From Chytriomyces cf. hyalinus JEL632 (taxonomy: Eukaryota > Chytridiomycota > Chytridiomycetes > Chytridiales > Chytriomycetaceae), in contig JAIWWG010000186.1 of assembly GCA_025435555.1 (NCBI GenBank), positions 1-22,832 of the forward strand: DNA of 22,832 nt, read 5' to 3'. Shown piece by piece: positions 1-21,836 of the stretch (its first letter is position 1; every line of letters begins with the position of its first letter). Made by a program: the position numbers and the translations under genes. The notes under the pieces are model-generated. The model was not told the origin of the DNA. It saw only the letters and a list, made by a program, of their open reading frames with translations, and did not search any database.

Positions 1-2931
1 GAAGTGACCGGTTTGGCCGGCTTTCGAAAACCCCCCATTCGAACGCATCAACATCCGTGCTCTGCAGGGCAGAATGGATCAGTATCGTGAGGAACTTGAG
101 AAAAGGGAAGGAGAAATCAACCAAGTACTCACTGCAACAATTGAGGAAATCGAGCACCATCGACTCACGGCCGGACCAGTCACATGGGAAGACCGCGTCG
201 ATATTGCTGACCGTGCTTGGGACTTAGTATCTGACTGGATTCGTTCAGCTGCGAGAAAAGCCCTTGGTGTGGTTAAGTTTCATGGTGGCGCTCTCAAGGG
301 CGGATATGATTGAGGACCATCTCAAAGAGCTGATGCGTTGGCGCACTGAAGCCCAGGACGCGATGCTTGAAGCTGGACTGGACCCCATCACGCGGAGAGA
401 ACGTGCCGGTAAACTTCGATATATCAACATCATTGTTCGAAAAGCAGCCAAGCGCTCGAGGAAACGCCTCTACAACGCAGTCACTGACACCAGAGTGTAT
501 GACCCGAGCGCAGAAGCCAAACGGATTGCCTGCCAACGTGCTCGTAGTCTGCGATCCAACTGCGCTCTGCGACCGGATAAAATGGATCAATACGCGCAAC
601 ACTTCAAAACAACGTTTGGCTCACCCCCAAAAGGAGAAGACCAACCCAACCCCATCGCACTTGACACAACCAATCCCCGATCCCCCGAACCCCACTCACA
701 AAACATCTGTCGCAGATATCATTAAGGAAGAAAACGTGCATAGCCTGGTTGCCTGGATGCCCTCAGGAAAAGCAGCTGGAGAAGATGGAATACATGGAGA
801 GTTAGTCAAGGGACCCAAGGATCCGGAGACTGAAATCATTATCACAGCTTATCCCCTCACCCTCGCATTCCGCATCTTCACTGCACTTCTCGCAACACCC
901 ACCGAGTGGAATGTCGCCAACGTGGCACTGGTCTACAAAAACAAGGGTGATCAACATGACGTCGCCAATTATCGTCCCATATCGCTTACCTGTCGTATTC
1001 GGATGGTGTATGAGGGTTGCTTCCGTCACCTCCTTGAACACCGCACTAACTCGTTCACTGACACTGCACAAGGTGGCTTCCGACGCAACCGCTCAACCCT
1101 CGATCAGCTACTCACCCTCCACGAAATCATCGCAGCCCACCCAGACCTCCACGCAGTATACCTCGACATCCAAGCAGCTTACGATTGTACCAATCGCCCC
1201 CTCCTCTGGACAGAAATGTTCGAAAACCCGTCAGACCCCAATCCACAGATTACCCACTCAGTACTCATCCCCATCTTCAGATGCCTGTTTGACCACAACG
1301 TCGCCCGTCTACTCGTATCCGGCTCCAAATCTGCAGATATCCCAGTTACCCGTGGTCTCCTACAAGGAACACTCTCAGCACCCCCCCTCTTCAACATCTC
1401 CATCAACTCGCTCCCAGCAACACTCCGTGACCTGTACCAGAATGCATGTATTCGCGTCGGACCCCACCGCATCAACTCACTCCTTTTCGCAGATGACACT
1501 ACAGTTTTCGCACGCAACAAACACACACTTCAGCAAATCATCAACACAGTCGCAGAATGGGGTAAGAAGAAGGGCGTCACCTGGGCGCCACACAAAAGCG
1601 TCGCTGTCGGACCGACCGAGATGTGCATCAAAATGAATGGAATCGAAATCGCACAAAGAGACAGCACCAGCTACGTAGGAATGACAATGACCGCCACAGG
1701 AATCGACATGACCGCATCAACATCAAAAAGAATCACCGATGCCAAGAAGACACTGTCCTGGATGAAGGGAAAAGGGTTTAATGGTTTTGGTTTTCGAACC
1801 CTGCACAGTCTATATATGTACCCAGTCTTTATTCGCTCGCAACTCGAATATGGTCTCGCAATTCGTCCGCTCACGACAGAAGAACTCCAGCCACTCCAGA
1901 AATTCCAGAACACATGCCTCCGTATCCTCTACTCAGTACCCACCTCCACATCTATCGCCTCGCTACACCTACTATCATCAGTTCCCACTATCAAAACACG
2001 TAACCTCATCCTCAATGCTGCCTACTACTACCGTCTCCACCAGTCCAACGACACTCGCAACCTCACACTCCACACATACCGCCAAGGCCTCGAACGAGAC
2101 CACAGACCCGAATCCACATCACTCATCAAGCACACCCTCGCACACAACCCACACTTCCGATCACTTCCCCGCCTCGCACTCATTGTCAACCCGCTCACCG
2201 TCAACAATCGTCAACCCATGCTCATCACTCCTCGTGGATCCACCCACAAGATCCCCGAAGACACCATTGACGAATGGCACCACCAAGACATGCTCGCGCT
2301 TCAACAGAAATCCCAAGCCCGGACATCGAAAATTCTCCCAGTCCCTGCGACCCGCAAGCAGCGCCACGCGCTTGTCATGGCCGGCCCCGCAATTTCCAGA
2401 CCAGTCTCCCGCACCATCCTCCTCTGGCTCCTTGGCCGTATATGCAACCACCAAGAGTGCCGCACGTGCGGCGTCGAACTGTCCCGCCAGCATGGCATTG
2501 AGTGCTCCGGCATTGAACCCGCCCTGCAAGCCGCCTTCGACAACGATCTCGGACCGCCACCAGAACTCCTCGCGCATGGAGCCACTATCATCGACGAAGC
2601 CATTAGCAAGCTGGAGTTCAAATCCGGGACCAATACAAGAATCGAAGCCACTTACCAGGCCATCAACACGATCCGACTCGCCTGCGGCGGATACAGCGAG
2701 ATCATCGACGCCAGCACCGCTACGCTCCAGCAAGAGCTCGACGCCATCTTCGCGGACTACGAGGGCCTGCGAAGCATCCGAGTTCAGGCCACCGCCATCA
2801 TGAACGCCCACTACAACCCAGCGAAATTCAAACCAACTTACCGAAGCGGGCCATCAAACGCACAAGCACCCCACCGCGGGGCGATCCGGAACCGAGGAGG
2901 TCGACCGAGAGGCCGTGGACGAGGCGGCTGA
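1..2931 (+). pseudogene. Element A ORF2: LINE reverse transcriptase, two frameshifts, 5' end outside window
   Basis: Reverse transcriptase of a non-LTR retrotransposon, which would copy element RNA at a nicked target. Coding similarity starts by about position 8 and reads in three frames. Frame 2 runs to about 300 and includes an RINIRAL segment matching RWNVRRL of element D. Frame 3 runs to about 660-690, and frame 1 from there to the TGA at 2929-2931. The second shift falls in a C-rich run at 671-695. RT motifs are visible in order: GKAAGEDGI, NYRPISLT, QGGFRRNRSTLDQ, motif A LDIQAAYD, motif B GLLQGTLSAPPLFN, catalytic LLFADDT, and a YVGM motif E. A CX2CX7HX3C knuckle (CRTC...H...C) lies near 2459-2504. 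The C-terminus is RG-rich (RGGRPRGRGRGG). Motif B reads LSAPPLFN where D has LSPILFN. A TGA at 5-7 stops the frame just upstream, so an earlier shift or truncation is possible. Confidence 0.88.
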
Positions 2932-3122
2932 TGCGGCGGACTTGCGCTGCTGTTGTTGGCAGATCGACATTTTCTGTCAACTTTTACATTTAACCATTTC
3001 GAAATTTTTTTTCGCGACTTAGTCGTTTTTTCTCTGTATCCTTACCAAACACGGCCCAAAAAGGGAACCGATTACCATTTTGAAAGCGCGCTTTATCAAG
3101 CAATAAAGACACACTGAAAACG
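2932..3122 (+). other. 3' UTR of element A
   Basis: This non-coding stretch lies between the ORF2 stop and the telomere-like junction. It is A/T-richer than the coding part and contains AATAAA at 3102-3107, about 15-20 nt before the end. Its last bases are ACTGAAAACG, the same terminus as in elements C to F, although the rest of the UTR is not obviously alignable with theirs. No poly(A) tail follows. Confidence 0.75.
3102..3107 (+). promoter_or_regulatory. Putative polyadenylation signal AATAAA (element A)
   Basis: A canonical AATAAA hexamer sits about 20 nt upstream of the element's 3' end, the usual spacing for cleavage. The call rests on position and motif only. Confidence 0.55.
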
Positions 3123-3133
3123 TTAGGATTAGG
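3123..3133 (+). repeat. Degenerate telomere-type repeat TTAGGATTAGG at the A/B junction
   Basis: Two telomere-like units differ by one base from the TTAGGGTTAGG found at the C/D, D/E and E/F junctions. They join the 3' terminus of element A directly to the 5'-truncated start of element B, with no A-run between. Confidence 0.75.
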
Positions 3134-3958
3134 CACCGTGCTACCGAGCTCAATCTCATGTGGTCCTCCCGATTGCATAACTCAACTGATCGTTCTATCC
3201 CGGCTGTTCGTTTCTGGCGCGGCGCTCTGCTTGGTGCTGACAAACCATTTCAGGAATGTCTTCCCCGCCTTGCTCGCTCCAACCCACTTGTGACTCATGT
3301 GGATGCTAAATGGATTGATTTTCGACAGCAACCACTGGTTCCCCCACCTCCAGCTGAAGTTCCGTTCCGGTACCCTCCGAAGCCAAAACAAGCGCTGTCT
3401 GACAATGCTCGCAAGAAGCTGCGCAAGGAATCCATCGTCAACCTGGACAACAACCTGGACACCATTGCTGGCGCAATCCAAGTCGAAACCAAAGACCCAG
3501 TCCGGCCGTATCTGACTGCCTGCAAGGGAATTGACCGCAAGACACGCAACAACATCCTTCGCTGGACTCTTGGTGCCGTCACCCGACACGAACCGTGCCT
3601 CAAGTGCAACGACGTACTGACCCGATCCCATGCTGCTGACTGTTCTGGTGCCACTGCTCTCCTGCGCATCAACTGGGACACGCTTGCACCTCCTGCCGGC
3701 CGAATGACCTGGCTTGATACGATCCTGAATGAAGTCCGGAATACACCGCCCTCCGAAATCGACACGTACACCGAAGTCTCTTCTGCCGTAGCTCTCATCT
3801 ACACCGAATGTCGCCACCTCCAACAGCAAGCCAATGGCTACTGGGCCGAGCCAGATGCACCCGCACGACCACTGCCGCCTCGAAGACCGCGAAATCGCAT
3901 ACCTCAACCCGGGGGAGCCCCGCTTGGGCGACCACGGCAAAACCCGGAGCCTGGATAA
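3134..3958 (+). pseudogene. ORF2 C-terminal fragment of element B (post-RT region with CCHC knuckle)
   Basis: This is an open frame with no start of its own at the truncation point; the first in-frame ATG is at 3158. It encodes the region after the RT thumb, including CLKC...H...C (CX2CX7HX3C, about 3596-3643) and a proline/arginine-rich tail, and stops with TAA at 3956-3958. The 266 residues from 3158 are identical to the end of element C's ORF2. The RT catalytic core and the endonuclease are missing, so this is a dead fragment even though the frame is open. In LINE ORF2 proteins such a C-terminal knuckle is thought to help bind RNA or DNA. Confidence 0.88.
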
Positions 3959-4140
3959 TCAACCGTCAAGCCCGAACTGACCATACATATCTTATTACCT
4001 TTACCGATTCATCTGTTTCTCACATTTCCCGACCACTTTACTTCTGCTTTCTTGGAGTTCATTGACACTTTTTTGCGTGATTTTAGCTATCTTTCCACCC
4101 CGCCCTTGTGTTACTGTGTAACGTTATTAAAAGAACTGAC
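3959..4140 (+). other. 3' UTR of element B, diverged
   Basis: This matches the 3' UTR of C, D, E and F. From about 4009 it carries many small changes, unlike the perfectly matching coding part before it. ATTAAA lies at 4126-4131. The terminal ACTGAAAACG seen elsewhere is replaced by ACTGACCACACCG. Confidence 0.7.
4126..4131 (+). promoter_or_regulatory. Putative polyadenylation signal ATTAAA (element B)
   Basis: A common variant polyadenylation hexamer at the same place near the 3' end as in the other copies. Confidence 0.4.
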
Positions 4141-4166
4141 CACACCGTTCGGCATTAGGCCTCCCC
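4136..4166 (+). other. B/C junction, ambiguous breakpoint
   Basis: The end of B passes into C through CACACCGTTCGGCATTAGG. ATTAGG at 4154-4159 could be the remnant of a telomere-type junction. However, the same bases also align loosely with element D's own CACACCGCGG...GCAGTAGGCG just before GGGAAGTACTT (near 10066-10101), so C may begin as early as about 4139. The sequence does not decide between the two. Confidence 0.5.
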
Positions 4167-4171
4167 GGGAA

Positions 4172-6818
4172 GTACTTGCTCGCTCCTCGCTCTTGAACAA
4201 TACTCACACACCAAACCGTGCTAGAACTCAAGAGTTGATCAACGAGGCCTGGGAACACTTCCTGTCATGGGTCCGAAATGCTGCGTCAAAGTCAATTGGT
4301 GTCCTCCAAGTCTCTGACCATCTTTTTTTTGCCATCGGAGTTTTGGACTGATGAGCTTGAACAAAGTCGGGACAACGTGCAGCAAGAACTTGCGAACGTG
4401 CAACAGGAAATCGAGCGTGGCCAGTTGTCTCGTCTCGAAATCAAACGCCTTGCTTCCGAACTGACCAACACTCAGCGTGCTTACCGGGCGGATCTGACCA
4501 CACGCAAGCGCGTGCTCTTCGAAGATGCTGTCGATAAGCTCACAGTCCCACAAAACATGTCCTCGTTCATGCGCATGGTAAAAGGAGCCAAGTCGCGAAA
4601 AGACCGCACTGTCTGCAAACTGGACCCGGCGAAAATCAATGAACACGCTGCCCATTTTCGAACTACCTTTGGAGCACCTCCGACTGGACATCCCCAACCT
4701 GGACCCCCTGCGCTTGAGGAAATCCAGTCGCGTCCAACTCAGGAAGTCTTCAACCCGGATGCGATCATGTCTGCGATTGCTGGACTCCCACTCGGAAAGG
4801 CTACTGGATCCGATGGAATTCCTGCTGAACTCATCAAAGCCGGTGGCGATCTCATGGCTGACGTTCTCAGTGTTTTCCTGCCCATGGTCCATGCTGCTGC
4901 AACTATTCCATCTGACTGGAGGAAGGCGCTCATTGTGCCAGTCTTCAAGAAGAAGGGATCTGATCAGGACATTGCAAACTACCGACCTATTGCACTGACA
5001 AGTACGATACGACGACTCTACGAGCGGCTGCTTGTTCCTGAACTTGGACCCGTAATGCAACAACTCGATGACTTTCAAGGTGGCTTCAGACCCGGTCGGT
5101 CCTCGCTCGATCAAGCCATGGTTCTCCACGAAACCCTGAACACCAATGAACATGCTTCGACTATCCTGCTGGACATCAAAGCGGCATATGACGAAGTCGA
5201 TCGAAGGGTTCTTTGGCAAATGCTCACACAAGTCTTCGGCCTGGACGAATTCATGCTTGCACGGCTCCAGGATCTTTTCGATCACAACTCGTGCTGTCTG
5301 GTGGTGGCTGGCGTGATTAGTGATCCGATTGACAACGAACGAGGTCTTTTGCAGGGTGCTACTCTGTCCCCGATTTTGTTCAACTGTCACATCCATGGTC
5401 TCTCAATTCGGCTACGTGCTCCTGGAATCCCGCGAATTCGAATCAACGGTATCCATCTCAATAACCTCCTGTTTGCAGACGATACGTCCTTGGTAGCTGC
5501 AAATCAACATGATCTCGCAGTCCTGCTCCGAACGTGTGAGGAATGGTCCAACACTGTCGGCATCCGGTTCTCGCCATCCAAGTGCATCTATCTCGGTCCT
5601 GTTCCAGCACTACGTGATGTACCTCTCAAGCTCTACAACGTGGACCTTCCATCCCAGCAATGTGCCCCGTATCTCGGCATCCCTTTTGGCCAACACGGAA
5701 TCAACTGGGCTCTGCTGGCAAAGGAACGAACTTCAAAAGCGCGTGGTGTCATTGTGGCGCTGGCATCGGTAGGTATGAATGCAATGGGCTGGGCTCCTGC
5801 AGCTTCTGTTACTATCTACAGGAGTTTCATTCGGCCGGTCCTTGAATATGGCATTGCTCTCAAGCTCCCATCCGCGTCCACGCTCAAGTTGTACGAGTCG
5901 GTCCAACGTCTTGCACTACGGACTCTCACATCAACACCCCGCAACACGTCCACTGCCGCTCTCCACAAGCTGCTGCAAGTCGAACCATTCAAACACCGTG
6001 CTACCGAGCTCAATCTCATGTGGTCCTCCCGATTGCATAACTCAACTGATCGTTCTATCCCGGCTGTTCGTTTCTGGCGCGGCGCTCTGCTTGGTGCTGA
6101 CAAACCATTTCAGGAATGTCTTCCCCGCCTTGCTCGCTCCAACCCACTTGTGACTCATGTGGATGCTAAATGGATTGATTTTCGACAGCAACCACTGGTT
6201 CCCCCACCTCCAGCTGAAGTTCCGTTCCGGTACCCTCCGAAGCCAAAACAAGCGCTGTCTGACAATGCTCGCAAGAAGCTGCGCAAGGAATCCATCGTCA
6301 ACCTGGACAACAACCTGGACACCATTGCTGGCGCAATCCAAGTCGAAACCAAAGACCCAGTCCGGCCGTATCTGACTGCCTGCAAGGGAATTGACCGCAA
6401 GACACGCAACAACATCCTTCGCTGGACTCTTGGTGCCGTCACCCGACACGAACCGTGCCTCAAGTGCAACGACGTACTGACCCGATCCCATGCTGCTGAC
6501 TGTTCTGGTGCCACTGCTCTCCTGCGCATCAACTGGGACACGCTTGCACCTCCTGCCGGCCGAATGACCTGGCTTGATACGATCCTGAATGAAGTCCGGA
6601 ATACACCGCCCTCCGAAATCGACACGTACACCGAAGTCTCTTCTGCCGTAGCTCTCATCTACACCGAATGTCGCCACCTCCAACAGCAAGCCAATGGCTA
6701 CTGGGCCGAGCCAGATGCACCCGCACGACCACTGCCGCCTCGAAGACCGCGAAATCGCATACCTCAACCCGGGGGAGCCCCGCTTGGGCGACCACGGCAA
6801 AACCCGGAGCCTGGATAA
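4172..6818 (+). pseudogene. Element C ORF2, N-terminally truncated: RT plus CCHC C-terminus
   Basis: Reverse transcriptase fragment of the D family. The linker segment reads in frame 2 up to a run of eight T at 4323-4330, where D has a single T. The seven extra bases shift the frame, and the rest (from about 4331) is open in frame 3 to TAA at 6816-6818. An ATG-initiated version of the second frame would start at 4278, but its first residues are out-of-frame translation. Visible parts are GKATGSDGI, NYRPIALT, GGFRPGRSSLDQ, motif A LDIKAAYD, motif B GLLQGATLSPILFN, catalytic LLFADDT, PYLG motif E, then CLKC...H...C (6456-6503) and a proline/arginine-rich end. With no endonuclease or ORF1 it is not autonomous, though the RT core itself is intact. 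Confidence 0.88.
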
Positions 6819-7015
6819 TCAACCGTCAAGCCCGAACTGACCATACATATCTTATTACCTTTACCGATCATCTGTTTTCTTAACATTTCCGCACTTTACT
6901 TCTGATTCTTTGGAGTTCTTGAACTTTTTTTGAGTGATTTTTGCTATCTTTCAACCCCGCACTTGTGTTACTGTGTAACTTGATTAAAAGAAACTGAAAA
7001 CGTTAACTGAAAACG
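6819..7015 (+). other. 3' UTR of element C
   Basis: About 197 nt of non-coding, T-rich sequence conserved in B, D, E and F. ATTAAA lies at 6983-6988. The last part contains AACTGAAAACGTT twice in tandem (6992-7004 and 7005-7017), while D and E have it once. In the array this UTR lies directly upstream of element D's ORF1, so it is also the candidate promoter region for D. Confidence 0.75.
6983..6988 (+). promoter_or_regulatory. Putative polyadenylation signal ATTAAA (element C)
   Basis: Variant polyadenylation hexamer about 30 nt before the telomere-type repeat; conserved in position in B, C, D and E. Confidence 0.45.
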
Positions 7016-7017
7016 TT
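6992..7017 (+). repeat. Tandem duplication of AACTGAAAACGTT at the 3' end of C
   Basis: Two adjacent 13-nt copies of the element's 3' terminal motif. A, D and E carry only one copy, so this is a local duplication at the terminus. Confidence 0.85.
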
Positions 7018-7026
7018 AGGGTTAGG
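7016..7026 (+). repeat. Telomere-type repeat TTAGGGTTAGG at the C/D junction
   Basis: Almost two perfect TTAGGG units separate the 3' end of C from the 5' end of D. The G-rich strand is the sense strand of the elements. Confidence 0.85.
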
Positions 7027-7042
7027 AAAAAGTCTGTTTGAA
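7027..7042 (+). other. Very short 5' leader of element D
   Basis: Only A5-GTCTGTTTGAA separates the telomere repeat from the ORF1 ATG. The same leader starts E (with 11 A) and F (with 6 A). It is too short to hold an ordinary internal promoter. Confidence 0.75.
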
Positions 7043-8926
7043 ATGTCCACGGTCATCAAAAGCAGCAGCACCAACACCAAGCACCCGTTCGTGATGCTGG
7101 AGCTCAACATCGCAAAGCGCCTCAAGGGGACGGCTCGCTGTCCCGTGGCGGGATGCGGGTCGGCCTCTCTGAAGAGCCTTGGGGTGGGAGGGAATCCGAA
7201 CCAGTTTGGGTTCTCCACCATCCAAATGCAGTGCACCACGTGCACCAAACGTTGCAGACTCAACGCAGCGCTGAAGGCAGGAGGGTCGGCCTCTGCGGAC
7301 CTGTACGCAGAGTGGGAGAAGGCTTTCGGTAAGCTGGTCCCAGTCACTTCCACCACAGGCACAGCAGCAAAGCGCCGCCGCCAGAACTCCGAAGCAGACA
7401 CTGCCACTGCAGTCTCTACTTCCACACCCAGTGCTTCCCAGAGTCGTCTGATCCAACAGACCCTCTCATTTGCTGCAGCCACCGCTGGCCGCTCTGTGGA
7501 TCAGCCACCAGCAGGCTCAGCAGGCTCAGCAAGCACAGCAACAACCTCAACAACCAATCTCACCACCCCAGCTGGTTCCGCAGGCCTTCCACAGAGCGAA
7601 TTCAGCTTCATGGCACCCGCGCCAGCCATGCAGACCACCGCTGCAGCCTCCGAAATGTCGCCATCAGTGATTTCGAATGCATTTCCACCCCCTGCTGTGC
7701 CTGCCACAGCTGTCAACTGGCAGCAGCGTGCAGAGGCAGCAGAGGCCGCTACAGCTTCCCTTCAGACGCAGCTGCAGTCCCTGATTGCGCTGCTGGCCCA
7801 GCTGGTCACCCAGATGCAGCAGGGCTCAGTTGGTGTGGGTAAGTCATCAGGCACAGCAAATGAGTGTCAGCCAACTGTGGCGCAGCCATTGAGCACAGCA
7901 ACAGCCCTCTTGGCTTCCATCAGTGCTTCAACTGCTCCCACGCTCGCAGCACCAACTCCCAATGGAGCCCAGTCCACCCACGTGCAGCCCCATGTGCGTA
8001 CCTCTCGAAAAAGCGGTCGTGGAGGTCGCACTGGACCTGGAGGGCGTATTGTCCCAGGTGCTGCCCCTGCCTCAACAACAACTGTTTCTGTACCCGTTGC
8101 TGTTGAAAACACTTCCACACAGGTTGTTGAAGCCGCCTGGTCCACTGTTGCACGTAATGGAACGCGTCGTGCCCCTCCACCATCTTGCGAATCTCGTCAA
8201 CGCGCGCCGCAAACTCAGCAGCAGTATGATGAAAAAACACACCGCATGCGTCAAAAGAAGGCATTACAGATGGCGAAAGCTGTCCCTGAACCGAAAAAGT
8301 TTGCAGTGATCCGTGTTGAACTCCACAGCAGTCGTCAGTTGCGCGGATGTTCCTTCCGGGACCGGAAACATTTGATCGATGCGTTTGTGGGACAGATGGG
8401 GGTTCGCCACAATGTGGCTCTTACCTCATCTATTGGTAACTCCATCATTGAGCTGTATTGTCCGACTGATGTTGTTCTGGAAGTGGTGCGAGTTCTTAGG
8501 GAGCGTGGCCAACAAGTCCTCCTTGCAGCCTTCAACCCACTCATATCCGACATTGACGGAAATCGCCTTGACTCCACCCAGACAGAAAAAGCTGCCAAGC
8601 GCCTCGCGTTTTTGTGCAAAGCCGCACGTACTGTCAATCTCCGTGCTGCCATCCTTGCCGGTGCCTCTCAGCAACTCAAGGAAGCCACGCAGAAAGTGTT
8701 TGAAACCATCCGAGGCTCCCCATCCGACTCCCTTCTTGCACCCCCACGCCCCCACCGTAGCGCGTTTGCGAAATTTGCTGCCCCAGACACACTGTCGCTA
8801 ACTGATTTTGTGACTCTCGACCCAGTTCCGGAATCTACTGAGTTTGTCGATAGTCAAGACGATGTTGCCATGTCTGTGTCCAATCTGGATCTTGGTCCCG
8901 CGGCTGACGCCGCCGACCAAGAATGA
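7043..8926 (+). CDS. LINE ORF1 protein (element D), probable nucleic-acid-binding protein
   Basis: 627 residues, the intact ORF1 of the array. ORF1 proteins of LINEs bind element RNA and form the ribonucleoprotein; that role is inferred here from position and features. Residues 33-67 hold CPVAGC and CTTC, a CX4C-X25-CX2C pattern that could be a zinc-binding fold. KRRR at 110-113 may be a nuclear localisation signal. Residues 115-220 are low-complexity, rich in A, S, T, P and Q. Residues 225-260 look like a short coiled coil (QRAEAAEAA...LQTQLQSLIALLAQL). Residues 321-335 are R/G-rich. Residues 419-490 alternate strand-like and helix-like segments and could be an RRM-type fold, which I could not confirm. 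The ATG at 7043 is the first after the junction and is also the start in E and F. The stop TGA overlaps the ORF2 ATG. Confidence 0.88.
   Translation: MSTVIKSSSTNTKHPFVMLELNIAKRLKGTARCPVAGCGSASLKSLGVGGNPNQFGFSTIQMQCTTCTKRCRLNAALKAGGSASADLYAEWEKAFGKLVPVTSTTGTAAKRRRQNSEADTATAVSTSTPSASQSRLIQQTLSFAAATAGRSVDQPPAGSAGSASTATTSTTNLTTPAGSAGLPQSEFSFMAPAPAMQTTAAASEMSPSVISNAFPPPAVPATAVNWQQRAEAAEAATASLQTQLQSLIALLAQLVTQMQQGSVGVGKSSGTANECQPTVAQPLSTATALLASISASTAPTLAAPTPNGAQSTHVQPHVRTSRKSGRGGRTGPGGRIVPGAAPASTTTVSVPVAVENTSTQVVEAAWSTVARNGTRRAPPPSCESRQRAPQTQQQYDEKTHRMRQKKALQMAKAVPEPKKFAVIRVELHSSRQLRGCSFRDRKHLIDAFVGQMGVRHNVALTSSIGNSIIELYCPTDVVLEVVRVLRERGQQVLLAAFNPLISDIDGNRLDSTQTEKAAKRLAFLCKAARTVNLRAAILAGASQQLKEATQKVFETIRGSPSDSLLAPPRPHRSAFAKFAAPDTLSLTDFVTLDPVPESTEFVDSQDDVAMSVSNLDLGPAADAADQE
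8923..8926 (+). promoter_or_regulatory. ATGA overlap of ORF1 stop and ORF2 start
   Basis: The ORF2 ATG and the ORF1 TGA share bases in ATGA, and the arrangement is kept in E (14871-14874) and F (20790-20793). In the LINE SART1 an overlapping stop/start (UAAUG) supports translation of ORF2 by termination and reinitiation. The same mechanism is inferred here. Confidence 0.7.
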
Positions 8927-11900
8927 TCAAAATCGCATTTTCGAATCTCAACGGGCTGTCTGGCAAAGCCGAAGAAGTCCTGAGATTCAAGTCTGCGCAA
9001 TCTGTTGACCTTTCTTTAATGGTGGAAACGTGGCTCTCCCCAACATCCTCCATTCCTTTTCGACCACACCTATTTAATATCACAAGTACAAACACGGAGG
9101 CAATTGCGGGAGGTCGGCGCAATTTTGGCGGCATTTTGGCGTTCTCAACTGCAACTCTCTCCCCCCAATTCCGAGTTATCTATGAAGATCCCTTGGGGTT
9201 CTATTGCGCAATGCGCATCTCTGATCTTATCCTCATCACTGCCTACATCCCCCCCTCTGCTGACAATCGGGTAATCGGGGACATGCTTCAAAAAGCGGAA
9301 ACGTTATCTGAAGGCTTTACGTTGCGTTGTCTTTTGGTTGGCGATCTGAACGCACGGATGACGGATGCTGGTGATTCACTCACAAACACACGTGGAACGT
9401 ATATGCAGCAGGAACTGTTCAACTCTGGACTTGCGCTTCAAATCCCGGAGTCTGGGAAATGGACGTCGTGGGCTGGTGGTGGTCGAGGGATTCCGGATGT
9501 TGTACTCTCGAGCTTCCCAGTCTCTAACCTCACAGTTCATGAAGGCGAGTCACTTGGAGGTTCGGACCATCGGCCGCTGACATTTTCTGTGCCACTGGAT
9601 GTCGAAACCAAGCCCAAGTCTTTTGCGCGCTGGAATGTTCGTCGCCTCACAACTGCCAAATACCATCAGCGTTTTGCTGAGGAGCTGGAGTCCACGCAGC
9701 AGGAGATCATGGATCAACTGGAATTGCTGCGAACACGCTTGGAAAGCCCTGCTGTGGGATACGTTGCGGGTGTATCACAGTGCGATGCACACACCGTGGC
9801 ACCTGCAGTAGGCGCCAACCCTCCGGGAAGTACTTCCCATGCTTCTCTTGATCCTGTTACCCACACTGCAGATTGCCCCAGAGCCACCACTCACATGTCT
9901 GACAGTCCTTCTCAGTCCGCTGGTCCATCCCACTCCCATCCACGTTCTGTCGATGCTCCCAACCCATCTACGCAGCAGGACATGTGCTTATGCCTGGAAT
10001 TGCTGCGAACGAGCTTTGAAAGCCCTGCTGTGGGGTACATCGCGGGTGCATCACAGTGCGATGCACACACCGCGGTACCTGCAGTAGGCGCTCCCCTCCC
10101 GGGAAGTACTTCTCGCTCCTCGCTCTTGAACAATACTCACACACCAAACCGTGCTAGAACTCAAGAGTTGATCAACGAGGCCTGGGAACACTTCCTGTCA
10201 TGGGTCCGAAATGCTGCGTCAAAGTCAATTGGTGTCCTCCAAGTCTCTGACCATCTGCCATCGGAGTTTTGGACTGATGAGCTTGAACAAAGTCGGGACA
10301 ACGTGCAGCAAGAACTTGCGAACGTGCAACAGGAAATCGAGCGTGGCCAGTTGTCTCGTCTCGAAATCAAACGCCTTGCTTCCGAACTGACCAACACTCA
10401 GCGTGCTTACCGGGCGGATCTGACCACACGCAAGCGCGTGCTCTTCGAAGATGCTGTCGATAAGCTCACAGTCCCACAAAACATGTCCTCGTTCATGCGC
10501 ATGGTAAAAGGAGCCAAGTCGCGAAAAGACCGCACTGTCTGCAAACTGGACCCGGCGAAAATCAATGAACACGCTGCCCATTTTCGAACTACCTTTGGAG
10601 CACCTCCGACTGGACATCCCCAACCTGGACCCCCTGCGCTTGAGGAAATCCAGTCGCGTCCAACTCAGGAAGTCTTCAACCCGGATGCGATCATGTCTGC
10701 GATTGCTGGACTCCCACTCGGAAAGGCTACTGGATCCGATGGAATTCCTGCTGAACTCATCAAAGCCGGTGGCGATCTCATGGCTGACGTTCTCAGTGTT
10801 TTCCTGCCCATGGTCCATGCTGCTGCAACTATTCCATCTGACTGGAGGAAGGCGCTCATTGTGCCAGTCTTCAAGAAGAAGGGATCTGATCAGGACATTG
10901 CAAACTACCGACCTATTGCACTGACAAGTACGATACGACGACTCTACGAGCGGCTGCTTGTTCCTGAACTTGGACCCGTAATGCAACAACTCGATGACTT
11001 TCAAGGTGGCTTCAGACCCGGTCGGTCCTCGCTCGATCAAGCCATGGTTCTCCACGAAACCCTGAACACCAATGAACATGCTTCGACTATCCTGCTGGAC
11101 ATCAAAGCGGCATATGACGAAGTCGATCGAAGGGTTCTTTGGCAAATGCTCACACAAGTCTTCGGCCTGGACGAATTCATGCTTGCACGGCTCCAGGATC
11201 TTTTCGATCACAACTCGTGCTGTCTGGTGGTGGCTGGCGTGATTAGTGATCCGATTGACAACGAACGAGGTCTTTTGCAGGGTGCTACTCTGTCCCCGAT
11301 TTTGTTCAACTGTCACATCCATGGTCTCTCAATTCGGCTACGTGCTCCTGGAATCCCGCGAATTCGAATCAACGGTATCCATCTCAATAACCTCCTGTTT
11401 GCAGACGATACGTCCTTGGTAGCTGCAAATCAACATGATCTCGCAGTCCTGCTCCGAACGTGTGAGGAATGGTCCAACACTGTCGGCATCCGGTTCTCGC
11501 CATCCAAGTGCATCTATCTCGGTCCTGTTCCAGCACTACGTGATGTACCTCTCAAGCTCTACAACGTGGACCTTCCATCCCAGCAATGTGCCCCGTATCT
11601 CGGCATCCCTTTTGGCCAACACGGAATCAACTGGGCTCTGCTGGCAAAGGAACGAACTTCAAAAGCGCGTGGTGTCATTGTGGCGCTGGCATCGGTAGGT
11701 ATGAATGCAATGGGCTGGGCTCCTGCAGCTTCTGTTACTATCTACAGGAGTTTCATTCGGCCGGTCCTTGAATATGGCATTGCTCTCAAGCTCCCATCCG
11801 CGTCCACGCTCAAGTTGTACGAGTCGGTCCAACGTCTTGCACTACGGACTCTCACATCAACACCCCGCAACACGTCCACTGCCGCTCTCCACAAGCTGCT

Positions 11901-12405
11901 GCAAGTCGAACCATTCAAACACCGTGCTACCGAGCTCAATCTCATGTGGTCCTCCCGATTGCATAACTCAACTGATCGTTCTATCCCGGCTGTTCGTTTC
12001 TGGCGCGGCGCTCTGCTTGGTGCTGACAAACCATTTCAGGAATGTCTTCCCCGCCTTGCTCGCTCCAACCCACTTGTGACTCATGTGGATGCTAAATGGA
12101 TTGATTTTCGACAGCAACCACTGGTTCCCCCACCTCCAGCTGAAGTTCCGTTCCGGTACCCTCCGAAGCCAAAACAAGCGCTGTCTGACAATGCTCGCAA
12201 GAAGCTGCGCAAGGAATCCATCGTCAACCTGGACAACAACCTGGACACCATTGCTGGCGCAATCCAAGTCGAAACCAAAGACCCAGTCCGGCCGTATCTG
12301 ACTGCCTGCAAGGAATTGACCGCAAGACACGCAACAACATCCTTCGCTGGACTCTTGGTGCCGTCACCCGACACGAACCGTGCCTCAAGTGCAACGACGT
12401 ACTGA
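8923..12405 (+). CDS. LINE ORF2 polyprotein (element D): endonuclease, linker, reverse transcriptase; C-terminus lost by frameshift
   Basis: 1,160 residues as read. Residues 1-225 form an apurinic-type (EEP) endonuclease: NLNG at 8-11, ETWL with E35, GDLNAR with D141 and N143, and SDHRP at 214-218. These are the expected catalytic residues for nicking target DNA. Residues 260-395 are a P/S/H-rich linker with an in-frame duplication. Residues 590-960 form the RT: GKATGSDGI near 600, NYRPIALT at 661, GGFRPGRSSLDQ near 695, motif A LDIKAAYD with D726, motif B QG at 786, and FADD at 826-829. A one-base deletion at about 12311 (GG where B and C have GGG) replaces the last residues with 30 unrelated ones and removes the CCHC knuckle. 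Without that deletion homology continues to a TAA at 12742-12744, with further small indels on the way. Because the region after 12311 is indel-rich, the deletion may be a sequence error. Confidence 0.9.
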   Translation: MIKIAFSNLNGLSGKAEEVLRFKSAQSVDLSLMVETWLSPTSSIPFRPHLFNITSTNTEAIAGGRRNFGGILAFSTATLSPQFRVIYEDPLGFYCAMRISDLILITAYIPPSADNRVIGDMLQKAETLSEGFTLRCLLVGDLNARMTDAGDSLTNTRGTYMQQELFNSGLALQIPESGKWTSWAGGGRGIPDVVLSSFPVSNLTVHEGESLGGSDHRPLTFSVPLDVETKPKSFARWNVRRLTTAKYHQRFAEELESTQQEIMDQLELLRTRLESPAVGYVAGVSQCDAHTVAPAVGANPPGSTSHASLDPVTHTADCPRATTHMSDSPSQSAGPSHSHPRSVDAPNPSTQQDMCLCLELLRTSFESPAVGYIAGASQCDAHTAVPAVGAPLPGSTSRSSLLNNTHTPNRARTQELINEAWEHFLSWVRNAASKSIGVLQVSDHLPSEFWTDELEQSRDNVQQELANVQQEIERGQLSRLEIKRLASELTNTQRAYRADLTTRKRVLFEDAVDKLTVPQNMSSFMRMVKGAKSRKDRTVCKLDPAKINEHAAHFRTTFGAPPTGHPQPGPPALEEIQSRPTQEVFNPDAIMSAIAGLPLGKATGSDGIPAELIKAGGDLMADVLSVFLPMVHAAATIPSDWRKALIVPVFKKKGSDQDIANYRPIALTSTIRRLYERLLVPELGPVMQQLDDFQGGFRPGRSSLDQAMVLHETLNTNEHASTILLDIKAAYDEVDRRVLWQMLTQVFGLDEFMLARLQDLFDHNSCCLVVAGVISDPIDNERGLLQGATLSPILFNCHIHGLSIRLRAPGIPRIRINGIHLNNLLFADDTSLVAANQHDLAVLLRTCEEWSNTVGIRFSPSKCIYLGPVPALRDVPLKLYNVDLPSQQCAPYLGIPFGQHGINWALLAKERTSKARGVIVALASVGMNAMGWAPAASVTIYRSFIRPVLEYGIALKLPSASTLKLYESVQRLALRTLTSTPRNTSTAALHKLLQVEPFKHRATELNLMWSSRLHNSTDRSIPAVRFWRGALLGADKPFQECLPRLARSNPLVTHVDAKWIDFRQQPLVPPPPAEVPFRYPPKPKQALSDNARKKLRKESIVNLDNNLDTIAGAIQVETKDPVRPYLTACKELTARHATTSFAGLLVPSPDTNRASSATTY
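9694..9836 (+). repeat. Linker direct repeat, copy 1 (element D ORF2)
   Basis: A 143-nt segment recurs 276 nt (92 codons) downstream in the same frame. It encodes an LELLRT..ESPAVGY.AG.SQCDAHT pattern ending in PGSTS. The first 24 nt or so are less alike than the rest. It ends within GGGAAGTACTTCCC, a perfect 14-bp palindrome at 9825-9838. Confidence 0.88.
9970..10112 (+). repeat. Linker direct repeat, copy 2 (element D ORF2)
   Basis: Second copy of the 143-nt in-frame repeat. Substitutions against copy 1 are scattered, so the duplication is older than the spread of the present copies. The 5' edge of truncated element C falls inside this copy. Confidence 0.88.
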
Positions 12406-12744
12406 CCCGATCCCATGCTGCTGACTGTTCTGGTGCCACTGCTCTCCTGCGCATCAACTGGGACACGCTTGCACCTCCTGCCGGCCGAATGACCTGGCTT
12501 GATACATCCTGAACGAAGTCCGGAACTACACCGCCCTCTGAAATCGACTCAGTACACCTGAAGTCTCTGCTGCCGTAGCACTCATCTACACCGAATGTCG
12601 CCACCTCCAACAGCAAGCCAAGGCTACTGGGCCGAGCCAGATGCACCCGCACCGACCACTGCCGCCTCGAAGACCGCGAAATCGCATACCTCAACCCGGG
12701 GGAGCCCCGCTTGGGCGACCACGGCAAACCCGGAGCCTGGATAA
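12406..12744 (+). pseudogene. Out-of-frame remnant of the ORF2 C-terminus (element D)
   Basis: This DNA still matches the C-terminal coding region of B and C (CCHC knuckle, then the proline/arginine-rich tail) but is out of frame with the ORF2 of D. Beyond the deletion at about 12311 there are further one- or two-base indels, for example GATACATCC for GATACGATCC near 12503 and GCCAAGGC for GCCAATGGC near 12617. The original stop would be TAA at 12742-12744. Confidence 0.82.
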
Positions 12745-12931
12745 TCAACCGTCAAGCCCGAACTGACCATACGTATCTTATTACCTTTAACCGATCATCT
12801 GTTTTTCTTAACATTTTCCGCACCATTACTTCTGAATTCTTTGGAGTTTCTGAACTTTTTTTGAGTGATTTTTGCTATCTTTCAACCCCGCACTTGTGTT
12901 CTGTGTAACTTGATTAAAGAAACTGAAAACG
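12745..12931 (+). other. 3' UTR of element D
   Basis: Non-coding, T-rich and about 187 nt, homologous to the other 3' UTRs, with ATTAAA at 12913-12918 and terminus ACTGAAAACG. It lies directly upstream of element E's ORF1. Confidence 0.75.
12913..12918 (+). promoter_or_regulatory. Putative polyadenylation signal ATTAAA (element D)
   Basis: Variant polyadenylation hexamer, conserved in position with C and E, about 19 nt before the telomere-type repeat. Confidence 0.45.
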
Positions 12932-12942
12932 TTAGGGTTAGG
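12932..12942 (+). repeat. Telomere-type repeat TTAGGGTTAGG at the D/E junction
   Basis: Identical to the C/D and E/F junction repeats. It is followed by 11 A, against 5 at C/D and 6 at E/F. Confidence 0.85.
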
Positions 12943-12965
12943 AAAAAAAAAAAGTCTGTTTTGAA

Positions 12966-14874
12966 ATGTCCACGGTCATCAAAAGCAGCAGCACCAACAC
13001 CAAGCACCCGTTCGTGATGCTGGAGCTCAACATCGCAAAGCGCCTCAAGGGGACAGGCTCGCTGTCCCGTGGCGGGATGCGGGTCGGCCTCTCTGAAGAG
13101 CCTTGGGGTGGGAGGGAATCCGAACCAGTTTGGGTTCTCCACCATCCAAATGCAGTGCACCACGTGCACCAAAACGTTGCAGACTCAACGCAGCGCTGAA
13201 GGCAGGAGGGTCGGCCTCTGCGGACCTGTACGCAGAGTGGGAGAAGGCTTTCGGTAAGCTGGTCCCAGTCACTTCCACCACAGGCAACAGCAGCAAAGCG
13301 CCGCCGCCCAGAAACTCCGAAGGCAGACACTGCCACTGCAGTCTCTACTTCCACACCCAGTGCTTCCCAGAGTCGTCTGATCCAACAGACCCTCTTCATT
13401 TGCTGCAGCCACCGCTGGCCGCTCTGTGGATCAGCCACCAGCAGGCTCAGCAGGCTCAGCAAGCAACAGCAACAACCCTCAACAACCAATCTCACCACCC
13501 CAGCTGGATTCCGCAGGCCTTCCACAGAGCGAATTCAGCTTCATGGCACCCGCGCCAGCCATGCAGACCACCGCTGCAGCCTCCGAAATGTCGCCATCAG
13601 TGATTTCGAATGCATTTCCACCCCCTGCTGTGCCTGCCACAGCTGTCAACTGGCAGCAGCGTGCAGAGGCAGCAGAGGCCGCTACAGCTTCCCTTCAGAC
13701 GCAGCTGCAGTCCCTGATTGCGCTGCTGGCCCAGCTGGTCACCCGAGATGCAGCAGGGCTCAGTTTGGTGTGGGTAAGTCATCAGGCACAGCAAATGAGT
13801 TGTCAGCCAACTGTGGACGCAGCCAGTGAGCACAGCAACAGCCCTCTTGGCTTCCATCAGTGCTTCAACTGCTCCCACGCTCGCAGCACCAACTCCCAAT
13901 GGAGCCCAGTTCCACCCACGTGCAGCCCCATGTGCGTACCTCTCGAAAAAGCGGTCGTGGAGGTCGCACTGGACCTGGAGGGCGTATTGTCCCAGGTGCT
14001 GCCCCTGCCTCAACAACAACTGTTTCTGTACCCGTTGCTGTTGAAAACACTTCCACACAGGTTGCTTGAAGCCGCCTGGTCCCACTGTTGCACGTAATGG
14101 AACGCGTCGTGCCCCTCCACCATCTTGCGAATCTCGTCAACGCTGCGCCGCAAACTCAGCAGCAGTATGATGAAAAAAACACACCGCATGCGTCAAAAAG
14201 AAGGCATTACAGATGGCGAAAGCTGTCCCTGAACCGAAAAAGTTTGCAGGAGTGATCCCGTGTTGAACTCCACAGCAGTCGTCAGTTGCGCGGATGTTCC
14301 TTCCGGGACCGGAAACATTTGATCGATGCGTTTGTGGGACAGATGGGGGTTCGCCACAATGTGGCTCTTACCTCATCTATTGGTAACTCCATCATTGAGC
14401 TGTATTGTCCGACTGATGTTGTTCTGGAAGTGGTGCGAGTTCTTAGGGGCGTGGCCAACAAGTCCTCCTTGCAGCCTTCAACCCACTCATATCCGACATT
14501 GACGGAAATCGCCTTGACTCCACCCAGACCGAAAAAGCTGCCAAGCGCCTCGCTGTTTTTGTGCAAGCCGCACGTTACTGTCAATCTCCGTGCTGCCATC
14601 CTTGCCGGTGCCTCTCAGCAACTCAAGGAAGCCACGCAGAAAGTGTTTGAAACCATCCGAGGCTCCCCATCCGACTCCCTTCTTGCCACCCCCACGCCCC
14701 CACCGTAGCGCGTTTGCGAAATTTGCTGCCCCAGACACACTGTCGCTAACTGATTTTGTGACTCTCGACCAGTTCCGGAATCTACTGAGTTTGTCGATAG
14801 TCAAGACGATGTTGCCATAGTCTGTGTCCAATCTGGATCTTGGTCCCGCGGCTGACGCCGCCGACCAAGAATGA
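12966..14874 (+). pseudogene. ORF1 of element E, multiple frameshifts
   Basis: Homologous to D's ORF1 from the same ATG to the same TGA. The first shift comes early, near 13055 (an extra A in GGACAGGCTC). After that the match moves among all three frames, with fragments recognisable at about 13103-13290 (zinc-finger part and WEKAFGKLVP), 13500-13740 (low-complexity and coiled-coil part) and 14286-14500 (the candidate RRM-like part). The CPVAGC half of the zinc pattern is not in the same frame as its CTTC half. No product of normal length could be made from the sequence as given. Confidence 0.88.
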
Positions 14875-17800
14875 TCAAAATCGCAATTTTCGAATCTCAA
14901 CGGGCTGTCTGGCAAAGCCGAAGAAGTCCTGAGATTCAAGTTCTGCGCAATCTGTTGACCTTTCTTTAATGGTGGGAAACGTGGCTCTCCCCAACATCCT
15001 CCATTCCTTTTCGACCACACCTATTTAATATCACAAGTACAAACACGGAGGCGAATCTGCGGGAGGTCGGCGCAATTTTGGCGGCATTTTGGCGTTCTCA
15101 ACTGCAACTCCTCTCCCCCCAATTCCGAGTTATCTATGAAGATCCCTTGGGGTTCTATTGCGCAATGCGCATCTCTGATCTTATCTCATCACTGCCTACA
15201 TCCCCCCTCTGCTGACAATCGGTAATCGGGGGACATGCTTCAAAAAGCGGAAACGTTATCTGAAGGCTTTACGTTGCCGTTGTCTTTTGGTTGGCGATCT
15301 GAACCGCACGGATGACGGATGCTGGTGATTCACTCACAAACACACGTGGAACGTATATGCAGCAGGAACTGCTTCAACTCTGGACTTGCGCTTCAAATCC
15401 CGGAGTCTGGGAAATGGACGTCGTGGGCTGGTGGTGGTCGAGGGATTCGGATGTTGTACTCTCGACGCTTCCCAGTCTCTAACCTCACAGTTCATGAAGG
15501 CGAGTCACTTGGAGGTTTCGGACCATCGGCGCTGACATTTTCTGTGCCACTGGATGTCGAAACCAAGCCCAAGTCTTTTGCGCGCTGGAATGTTCGTCGC
15601 CTCACAACTGCCAAATACCATCAGCGTTTTGCTGAGGAGCTGGAGTCCTACGCAGCAGGAGATCATGGATCAACTGGAATTGCTGCGAACACGCTTGGAA
15701 AGCCCTGCTGTGGGATACGTTGCGGGTGTATCACAGTGCGATGCACACACCGTGGCACCTGCAGTAGGCGCCAACCCTCCGGGAAGTACTTCCCATGCTT
15801 CTCTTGATCCTGTTCCTCACACTGCAGGATTGCCCCCAGAGCCACACTCACATGTCTGACAGTCCTTCTCAGTCCGCTGGTCCATCCCACTCCCATCCAC
15901 GTTCTGTCGATGCTCCCAACCCATCTACGCAGCAGGACATGTGCTTATGCCTGGAATTGCTGCGAACGAGCTTTGAAAGCCCTGCTGTGGGGTACATCGC
16001 GGGTGTATCACAGTGCGATGCACGCACCGTGGTACCTGCAGTAGGCGCATCCCCTCCCGGGAAGTACTTCTCGCTCCTCGCTCTTGAACAATACTCACAC
16101 ACCAAACCGTGCTAGAACTCAAGAGTTGATCAACGAGGCCTGGGAACACTTCCTGTCATGGGTCCGAAATGCTGCGTCAAAGTCAATTGGTGTCCTCCAA
16201 GTCTCTGACCATCTGCATCGGAGTTTTGGACTGATGAGCTTGAACAAAGGTCGGGACAACGTGCAGCAAGAACTTGCGAACGTGCAACAGGAAATCGAGC
16301 GTGGCCAGTTGTCTCGTCTCGAAATCAAAACGCCTTGCTTCCGAACTGACCAACACTCAGCGTGCTTACCGGGCGGATCTGACCACACGCAAAGCGCGTG
16401 CTCTTCGAAGATGCTGTCGATAAGCTCACAGTCCCACAAAACATGTCCTCGTTCATGCGACATGGTAAAAGGAGCCAAGTCGCGAAAAGACCGCACTGTC
16501 TGCAAACTGGACCGGCGAAAATCAATGAACACGCTGCCCATTTTCGAACTACCTTTGAGCACCTCCGACTGGACATCCCCAACCTGGACCCCCTGCGCTT
16601 GAGGAAATCCAGTCGCGTCCAACTCAGGAAGTCTTCAACCCAGGATGCGATCATGTCTGCGATTGCTGGACTCCCACTCGGAAAGGCTACTGGATCCGAT
16701 GGAATTCCTGCTGAACTCATCAAGCCGGTGGCGATCTCATGGCTGACGTTCTCAGTGTTTTCCTGCCCATGGTCCATGCTGCTGCAACTATTCCATCTGA
16801 CTGGAGGAAGGCGCTCATTGTGGCCAGTCTTCAAGAAGAAGGGATCTGATCAGGACATTGCAAACTACCGACCCTATTGCACTGACAAGTACGATACGAC
16901 GACTCTACGAGCGGCTGCTTGTTCCTGAACTTGGACCCGTAATGCAACAACTCGATGACTTTCAAGGTGGCTTCAGACCCGGTCGGTCCTCGCTCGATCA
17001 AGCCATGGTTCTCCACGAAACCCTGAACACCAATGAACATGCTTCGACTATCCTGCTGGACATCAAAGCGGCATATGACGAAGTCGATCGAAGGGTTCTT
17101 TGGCAAATGCTCACACAAGTCTTCGGCCTGGACGAATTCATGCTTGCACGGCTCCAGGATCTTTTCGATCACAACTCGTGCTGTCTGGTGGTGGCTGGCG
17201 TGATTAGTGATCCGATTGACAACGAACGAGGTCTTTTCAGGTGCTACTCTGTCCCGATTTTGTTCAACTGTCACATCCATGGTCTCTCAATTCGGCTACG
17301 TACTCCTGGAATCCCGCGAATTCGAATCAACGGTATCCATCTCAATAACCTCCTGTTGCAGACGATACGTCCTTGGTAGCTGCAAATCAACATGATCTCG
17401 CAGTCCTGCTCCGAACGTGTGAGGAATGGTCCAACACTGTCGGCATCCGGTTTCTCGCCATCCAAGTGCATCTATCTCGGTCCTGTTCCAGCACTACGTG
17501 ATGTACCTCTCAAGCTCTACAACGTGGACCTTCCATCCCAGCAATGTGCCCCGTATCTCGGCATCCCTTTTGGCCAACACGGAATCAACTGGGCTCTGCT
17601 GGCAAAGGAACGAACTTCAAAAGCGCGTGGTGTCATTGTGGCGCTGCATCGGTAGGTATGATGCAATGGGCTGGGCTCCTGCAGCTTCTGTTACTATCTA
17701 CAGGAGTTCATTCGGCCGGTCCTTGAATATGGCATTGCTCTCAAGCTCCCATCCGCGTCCACGCTCAAGTTGTACGAGTCGGTCCAACGTCTTGCACTAC

Positions 17801-18700
17801 GGACTCTCACATCACACCCCGCAACACGTCCACTGCCGCTCTCCACAAGCTGCTGCAAGTCGAACCATTCAAACACCGTGCTACCGAGCTCAATCTCATG
17901 TGGTCCTCCCGATTGCATAACTCAACTGATCGTTCTATCCCGGCTGTTCGTTTCTGGCGCGGCGCTCTGCTTGGTGCTGACAAACCATTTCAGGAATGTC
18001 TTCCCCGCCTTGCTCGCTCCAACCCACTTGTGACTCATGTGGATGCTAAATGGATTGATTTTCGACAGCAACCACTGGTTCCCCCACCTCCAGCTGAAGT
18101 TCCGTTCCGGTACCCTCCGAAGCCAAAACAAGCGCTGTCTGACAATGCTCGCAAGAAGCTGCGCAAGGAATCCATCGTCAACCTGACAACAACCTGGACA
18201 CCATTGCTGGCGCAATCCAAGTCGAAACCAAAGACCCAGTCCGGCCGTATCTGACTGCCTGCAAGGGAATTGACCGCAAGACACGCAACAACATCCTTCG
18301 CTGGACTCTTGGTGCCGTCACCCGACACGAAACCGTGCCTCAAGTGCAACGACGTACTGACCCCGATCCCATGCTGCTGACTGTTCTGGTGCCACTGCTT
18401 CCTGCGGCATCACTGGACAACGCTTGCACCTCCTGCCGGCCGATGACCTGGCTTGATAACGATCCTGAATGAAGTCCGGAATACACCGCCCTCCGAAATC
18501 GACACGTACACCGAAGTCTCTTCTGCCGTAGCTACTCATCTACACCGAATGTCGCCACCTCCAACAGCAAGCCAATGGCTACTGGGCCGAGCCAGATGCC
18601 ACCCGCACGACCACTGCCGCTCGAAGACCGCGAAATCGCATACCTCAACCCGGGGGAGCCCCGCTTGGGCGACCACGGCAAAACCCTGGAGCCTGGATAA
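14871..18700 (+). pseudogene. ORF2 of element E, multiple frameshifts
   Basis: Homologous to D/C ORF2 from the ATGA overlap to TAA at 18698-18700. The endonuclease part is split among frames. The linker repeats are present at about 15650-15790 and 15928-16070. The longest RT piece runs from about 16878 to 17235 and includes GGFRPGRSSLDQ and LDIKAAYD. Just after it, motif B is damaged (CTTTTCAGGTGC where D has CTTTTGCAGGGTGC), and TTTGCAGACGAT, coding FADD in D, has lost a T near 17357, so the catalytic motif is out of frame. The C-terminal part is open in places (17898-18180) and then shifts again before the CCHC region. As given the gene is dead. Confidence 0.88.
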
Positions 18701-18885
18701 TCAACCGTCAAGCCCGAACTGACCATACGTATCTTATTACCTTTACCGATCATCTGTTTTCTTAACATTTCCGCACTTTACTTCTGATTCTTTGGAGTTT
18801 CTGAACTTTTTTTGAGTGATTTTTGCCTATCTTTCAACCCCGCACTTGTGTTACTGTGTAACTTGATTAAAAGAAACTGAAAACG
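18701..18885 (+). other. 3' UTR of element E
   Basis: Homologous non-coding region with ATTAAA at 18866-18871 and terminus ACTGAAAACG before the repeat. One extra C appears in TTTTTGCCTATC near 18827. It lies directly upstream of element F's ORF1. Confidence 0.75.
18866..18871 (+). promoter_or_regulatory. Putative polyadenylation signal ATTAAA (element E)
   Basis: Same hexamer and spacing as in C and D. Confidence 0.45.
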
Positions 18886-18896
18886 TTAGGGTTAGG
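18886..18896 (+). repeat. Telomere-type repeat TTAGGGTTAGG at the E/F junction
   Basis: Identical to the two preceding full junctions; followed by six A and GTCTGTTTGAA, the F leader. Confidence 0.85.
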
Positions 18897-18913
18897 AAAA
18901 AAGTCTGTTTGAA

Positions 18914-21560: not shown

Positions 21561-21703
21561 ACGCAGCAGGAGATCATGGATCAACTGGAATTGCTGCGAA
21601 CACGCTTGGAAAGCCCTGCTGTGGGATACGTTGCGGGTGTATCACAGTGCGATGCACACACCGTGGCACCTGCAGTAGGCGCCAACCCTCCGGGAAGTAC
21701 TTC
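21561..21703 (+). repeat. Linker direct repeat, copy 1 (element F ORF2)
   Basis: Same 143-nt repeat as in D, at the same 276-nt offset from its partner. Confidence 0.85.
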
Positions 21704-21836
21704 CCATGCTTCTCTTGATCCTGTTACCCACACTGCAGATTGCCCCAGAGCCACCACTCACATGTCTGACAGTCCTTCTCAGTCCGCTGGTCCATCCCAC
21801 TCCCATCCACGTTCTGTCGATGCTCCCAACCCATCT

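Follow-up and report, generated by a model that had tools for sequence, protein, structure and literature searches.

Long interspersed nuclear elements (LINEs) stand head to tail at chromosome ends in Drosophila (HeT-A, TART and TAHRE, of which HeT-A has no reverse transcriptase (RT)) and at the TTAGGG telomeres of Pyricularia and Fusarium (MoTeR and FoTeR, accompanied by the RT-less MoTeR2). The silkworm has the telomeric LINEs SART1 and TRAS1, the latter with an endonuclease of the apurinic (APE) type. Here we compare with these systems a stretch of 22,832 bp (the window), which is an entire contig, C96, of a 37.78-Mb, 242-contig eukaryotic assembly. We consider it very probable that the LINEs arrayed in the window target telomeres, having been placed by target-primed insertion at G|GTTAGG or a telomere-like site, and that the linker between copies is the inherited target-site duplication (TSD) of the founder. 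The nearest known mechanism is that of the TSD-linked R1 arrays of Drosophila, and the nearest targeting is that of SART1. Telomere targeting and TSD-linked arrays, known separately in insects, would here be united in one system; among titles and abstracts, with most subscription papers outside this coverage, we found no report that combines the two.

In Drosophila ribosomal DNA, tandem R1 copies are separated by a 14-bp TSD, and insertion into the TSD has been proposed as the mechanism (PMC2718515). R1 resembles the elements described here in being a LINE with two open reading frames (ORFs), in its TSD-separated tandem copies and in its ectopic insertions, with TSDs, at target-like sites. It differs in its target, the 28S rRNA gene, and in the length of its TSD, which is 14 bp, or 11 or 13 bp in R1B of D. 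ananassae (PMC2718515). SART1 is, like our elements, a telomere-specific LINE whose coding strand carries the G-rich repeat, TTAGG in its case (PMC7265360). However, the SART1 insertion point lies between T and A of TTAGG, its nick requires about 12 bp of telomeric sequence upstream, and a poly(A) tail is used (PMC7265360), whereas here TSD analysis places the joint at G|GTTAGG, the upstream DNA can be non-telomeric and poly(A) is not kept. TRAS1 is likewise a LINE with a telomere-cutting endonuclease, but it is inserted in the opposite orientation, in the CCTAA strand (PMC7265360), an orientation shown here by a companion LINE, P, described below.

C96 consists almost entirely of non-LTR (lacking long terminal repeats) retrotransposons arranged head to tail, and six LINE copies, A to F, can be distinguished, every one on the + strand. 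Most belong to one family, which we call fam1. The C/D (7015..7026), D/E (12931..12942) and E/F (18885..18896) linkers are all the 12-bp GTTAGGGTTAGG, while the A/B linker (3122..3133), also of 12 bp, is GTTAGGATTAGG, a variant TSD; all four lie on the + strand, and their length is exactly two telomere hexamers. The sequence TTAGGNTTAGG occurs four times in the window, always on the + strand, at 3123, 7016, 12932 and 18886, against a mean of 0.02 in shuffles, and the last three joints are spaced 5,916 and 5,954 bp apart. An initial annotation of the window had described an identical joint at C/D, D/E and E/F and a variant at A/B, all in one orientation and with this spacing, and in these respects it is borne out. 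Other parts of it need amendment. With a joint of exactly two hexamers, the copies are not separated by "less than two telomere units"; the array is not limited to 3113-18900, since it spans the whole contig, 1-22832; and it is not built from a single family, because copy A belongs to a different, related one (fam2). Head-to-tail copies joined by telomere linkers are indeed found at four junctions, but the B/C joint (4140..4163, + strand) is degenerate and a clean linker is absent there.

What these linkers are is best seen at insertions outside canonical arrays. Six of eight such insertions have a duplicated 3' flank directly beside the element. The duplications are of 12 bp in C221 (GTTAGGGAGTAA), C210 (GTTAGGAATATG), C231 (GTAAGGGTTAAC), C32 (GTCACTCTTAGA) and C12 (GTTAGGACTCAG), and of 14 bp in C2 (CGTTAGGGAATAGG). 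Because a G precedes the 11-bp core on both sides in all six sites, the duplication is read as 12 bp and the element as ending in ACTGAAAAC. Five of these six copies, all but that in C210, start within coding sequence, i.e. they are 5'-truncated, and such truncations together with TSDs are as expected of target-primed reverse transcription. An insertion thus duplicates 12 bp, and within a telomere this amounts to exactly two hexamers, GTTAGGGTTAGG. The initial annotation took the joints for telomere repeats caught between copies; the ectopic TSDs, together with the array-specific variants described next, instead identify them as inherited 12-bp TSDs.

Across the assembly, the 15-mer ACTGAAAACGTTAGG is found at 76 places in 27 contigs, and its reversed control at none. 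Six further fam1 ends bring the number of joints to 82, in 30 contigs; one of 83 motif places, C96:7002, was excluded from the count because it is the inner of two tandem end motifs. When the fam1 3' end was searched for by similarity, with 40 of 76 first-look candidates scored, at least 41 places were obtained, and copy counts from a search with the fam1 ORF1 region, likewise with 40 candidates scored, are also lower bounds. The letters that follow these 41 or more 3' ends are TTAGG directly at 34, TTAGG past a duplicated end motif at one, and TTAGA at three. The initial annotation was prepared to abandon its view if most copies proved internal and without TTAGGG; for fam1 this is not what is seen. 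TTAGGGTTAGG follows the G at 45 of the 82 joints.

Linker variants cluster by array. TTAGGGTTATG is present at all seven joints of C10, TTAGGGTTAGA at all three of C140 (and at two of three in C142), TTAGGGTTATA at both joints of C198 and TTAGAGTTAGG at two of three in C5. Linkers agree in 115 of 147 within-contig pairs (shuffled mean 47), and in 27 of 30 such pairs when only non-canonical linkers are considered; in neither case did any of 20,000 shuffles reach as high, though the statistic is optimistic in that block-duplicated copies are not independent. Since variants recur within arrays, arrays appear to grow via insertion into the inherited TSD, and copies separated by one TSD are what an R1-type array consists of. 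One could suggest instead that the arrays arose mainly from unequal crossing-over, or from break-induced or rolling-circle amplification of a single unit, the linker being copied along with it. Copies D and F hardly differ (2 substitutions plus 3 gap runs across 3,940 aligned positions), C10 contains an apparent duplicated block of 6,128 bp, C66 and C78 have one truncation point in common, and D-loop or rolling-circle copying has been proposed for one MoTeR array (PMC7367193). Nevertheless, successive units differ in family and in 5' truncation after the same linker variant. In C10 the linker GTTAGGGTTATG at seven of seven joints stands ahead of five different following sequences, differing in family or truncation point, and block amplification alone is therefore insufficient for this array. 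Single ectopic insertions, moreover, have a TSD of the same size. Amplification can supplement insertion into the TSD and cannot replace it, and as the main source of the arrays we regard it as unlikely.

An assembly artefact could also imitate tandem order, and copy E is rich in indels, and assembled repeats collapse or break off at contig ends. Yet 15 of the 30 contigs have at least two joints, with varied unit orders and lengths, and the linker rule agrees with the TSDs at single insertions. We judge this explanation highly improbable. The differences of E from D (51 substitutions and 86 gap runs) look like those of unpolished sequence rather than decay, because, when they were counted again, homopolymers accounted for 59 of 87 indel runs.

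The elements are associated with telomeres. Tracts of at least three perfect TTAGGG number five in the assembly (two in C94 and one each in C111, C193 and C209), and all five adjoin such an element or the companion P, directly or via a few imperfect repeats. C111 passes from other DNA through (TTAGGG)21 into a 5'-truncated fam1 copy that reaches the contig end. At the end of C94 the order is array, five repeats, P, eight repeats and contig end, and the tract of C193 adjoins P. In C209 a fam1 copy is broken in ORF2 and is followed by telomere repeats up to the contig end, as if it had been capped by telomerase. Where a copy or an array is seen reaching the end of a contig longer than 60 kb, its 3' end points outward in seven of seven cases (C5, C40, C48, C68, C111, C209 and C238). 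The proposal of a telomere-associated lineage, made in the initial annotation, gains from both observations. Single copies within 25 kb of a contig end point outward in C12, C180 and C202; others (C2, C13, C32, C210 and C221) lie away from contig ends, and the arrays of C10 and C198, which have non-canonical linkers, are internal.

This orientation agrees with SART1 among the precedents that had been proposed for the window; MoTeR/FoTeR and HeT-A differ, and the array mechanism is closer to R1. MoTeR and FoTeR have a restriction-like endonuclease of the CRE type, unlike the APE type found here, where Pfam lists nothing after the RT. The 5' ends of MoTeRs point toward the chromosome end and their linkers vary in length (PMC7367193), in contrast to the 3' ends outward here. 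Internal MoTeR relics are reported to be without TSDs (PMC8381367). After the 3' end of FoTeR come 3-7 TAACCC, and no TSDs were identifiable for this element (PMC12857005). In HeT-A, TART and TAHRE the poly(A) faces the centromere (PMC10088271), which is opposite to the orientation here. Their Drosophila host also lacks telomerase, whereas here a telomerase RNA-binding domain (TERT) is encoded on C172, with a short gap in the match that suggests an intron, and TTAGGG tracts are present, so that telomerase is not replaced.

Several observations weigh against our interpretation. At three of the 41 fam1 3' ends the next letters are other than TTAGG or TTAGA (TAAGG in C231 and C202, which have the same flank, and TCACT in C32), and 76 of the 82 joints were located by a pattern that itself contains TTAGG, so that target preference is overstated at those 76. 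Two of the eight sites, C180 and C13, are without a TSD in the stretch fetched, the C13 copy being degenerate. (Nor did the fetched stretches reveal an outer TSD copy for the array of C10 or for that of C198.) Linkers are mixed in nine of the 15 contigs with at least two joints (C5, C48, C68, C78, C92, C95, C96, C142 and C238), mostly one base apart; part of this is perhaps sequencing error or an effect of the following A-run. Single copies near contig ends point inward in C4 and C231, and location at contig ends is in any case weak evidence because repeats break assemblies. Six more divergent matches to the fam1 ORF1 region, at C46:505021, C228:72219, C132:11945, C120:11729 and C25:80989 (83-85% identical) and at C181:246226 (92%), stand outside the joint and TSD analysis; they may show older insertions. 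Finally, three canonical joints (C40, C76 and the C94 end) continue into longer telomere repeats.

The last point recalls a different possibility, namely that elements inserted independently into long TTAGGG tracts, or became attached to chromosome ends, and that each tract was later eroded to about two repeats. The element within the 21-repeat tract of C111, and the tracts of 17 bp in C40 and of five repeats in C94 that follow a joint, would be in keeping with this. But erosion would hardly leave linkers of near-constant length, or non-telomeric variants repeated along the arrays of C10, C140 and C198, and MoTeR arrays, which do lie in telomere tracts, have linkers that range between half a repeat and over 20 repeats (PMC7367193). 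We regard this possibility as very unlikely.

If inheritance of the founder TSD is correct, the following course of events can be suggested. The APE-type endonuclease would nick the C-rich strand, leaving a 3' end ...CCCTAAC, from which the RT would copy element RNA starting at ACTGAAAAC, the poly(A) tail not being kept. The other strand would be cut 12 bp further on. The 12-bp copy is itself a target, so that later elements, of the same or a sibling family, would reuse either TSD and build head-to-tail arrays. As the DNA upstream within an array is the previous element's ACTGAAAAC, recognition must rest largely on the 12 bp themselves. Arrays founded in a telomere would carry GTTAGGGTTAGG, and arrays founded at telomere-like internal sites would keep their own variant. 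Unequal exchange may multiply the units further. Element 3' ends would face the chromosome end, and a broken element could be capped by telomerase.

The elements form more than one family. Three RT families (fam1, fam2 and a third in C221) have ORF2 products that are 30-42% identical, and the ACTGAAAAC 3' end and the target are common to them. An ORF1-only element of 2.33 kb in C210 (L062:3402-5733) has a TSD and the same 3' end and target, without endonuclease or RT; its coding content is that read through in the C210 copy alone. Units of like length and with the same 5' end are present at C10:54161-56491 and C94:17553-19884, and the first kilobase of this element has nine matches, perhaps including other family members. 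Companion P is a separate LINE with its own RT, its ORF2 product being 22-26% identical to the others, and has 24 matches in the genome. At the five places read (C94:22266-22814, C193:248424-248977, C76:35214-35761, C177:932211-933286 and C111:12530-14580), P ends in AATAAA and poly(A), followed by CCCTAA-like repeats. Its orientation is opposite to that of the fam elements and inward at the contig ends seen. We tentatively offer a wider picture, somewhat less likely than not to hold in full, in which the chromosome ends are built by a LINE community of at least three outward RT families, an ORF1-only element sharing their end motif and an inward poly(A) family. As the TSD equals two hexamers, each insertion would restore the repeat frame and make a fresh target, and the array would renew itself, with telomerase adding no more than a cap.

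Such arrays show a route to fixed short interstitial telomere linkers without telomerase. Linker variants serve as birthmarks of each array, so that the sequence records its founding insertion, its growth and exchange. The coexistence of inward and outward families is reminiscent of TRAS and SART in the silkworm and is relevant to the frequency with which pairs of this kind evolve. Breakage is reported for the longer interstitial TTAGGG tracts of Pyricularia, and stability for tracts of up to two repeats (PMC7367193); the linkers here hold at two repeats and thereby provide a testable contrast.

The remaining features of the window concern single copies. Copy A (1..3121, + strand) is the 3' part of a fam2 element, the sister family measuring about 5.45 kb per unit elsewhere; it ends in AATAAAGACACACTGAAAAC, and its RT-bearing ORF (499-2931) matches RVT_1 in Pfam at 6.2e-24. 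Copies B (3134..4139) and C (4164..7014) are 5'-truncated fam1 elements on the + strand, B matching D from element base 4894 and C starting at element base 3072. D (7027..12930) and E (12943..18884) are full-length fam1 elements, also on the + strand, and F (18897..22832, + strand), a fam1 copy as well, ends at the contig end; in D, E and F the identical element base comes first after the joint.

ORF1 of D (7043..8926, + strand) encodes 627 amino acids with a Cys-rich N-terminal segment, and no Pfam family scores above cut-off. ORF2 (8923..12405, + strand; 1160 amino acids) overlaps it by ATGA and loses its frame near the end. Within ORF2, Pfam matches an APE-type endonuclease (Exo_endo_phos_2, 9232..9579, + strand, 6.4e-9) and a reverse transcriptase (RVT_1, 10873..11607, + strand, E 1.6e-25). 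The corresponding fam2 endonuclease gives 3.6e-10 with Exo_endo_phos_2, and the motifs VGDLNA and GSDH are common to fam1 and fam2. By Pfam, an APE-like endonuclease thus lies N-terminal to the RT, as in an APE-type LINE, and the RT is of LINE type, its top PDB matches being L1 ORF2p and R2. The endonuclease and CCHC knuckle of the initial annotation are therefore both present, with a restriction for the knuckle. The latter (CLKCNDVLTRSHAADC, C-x2-C-x7-H-x3-C) lies in the ORF of copy C at 6456..6503 on the + strand, a position obtained via the offset from copy B, and is in frame in C and B, but ORF2 of D leaves frame upstream of it. Searches of PDB sequences with the endonuclease domain, as a single sequence or a two-row profile, did not find a related endonuclease chain. 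No relatives were found among viral contigs with ORF2 or the three-family alignment, nor among prokaryote genomes with the latter. Between endonuclease and RT, ORF2 of fam1 copies contains a direct repeat whose units measure about 145 bp and are about 84% identical (window 9691-9836 and 9967-10112).

The 3' end of D, ACTGAAAAC, is at 12922..12930 on the + strand and is common to the families; the predicted RNA fold of the element 3' end does not exceed shuffled sequences in stability (z 0.91). In copy C the end motif is found twice in tandem (window 6992-7018; ACTGAAAACGTTAACTGAAAACGTTAGGG). Slippage as reverse transcription began is a possible cause, and the doubling hints that the element RNA may reach into GUUA. 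A fam1 copy at C209:187600-188200, near the telomere-capped contig end, lies inside a coding sequence, which we take from its reading frame to be Copia-like, at GTAAGGGTTAGG.

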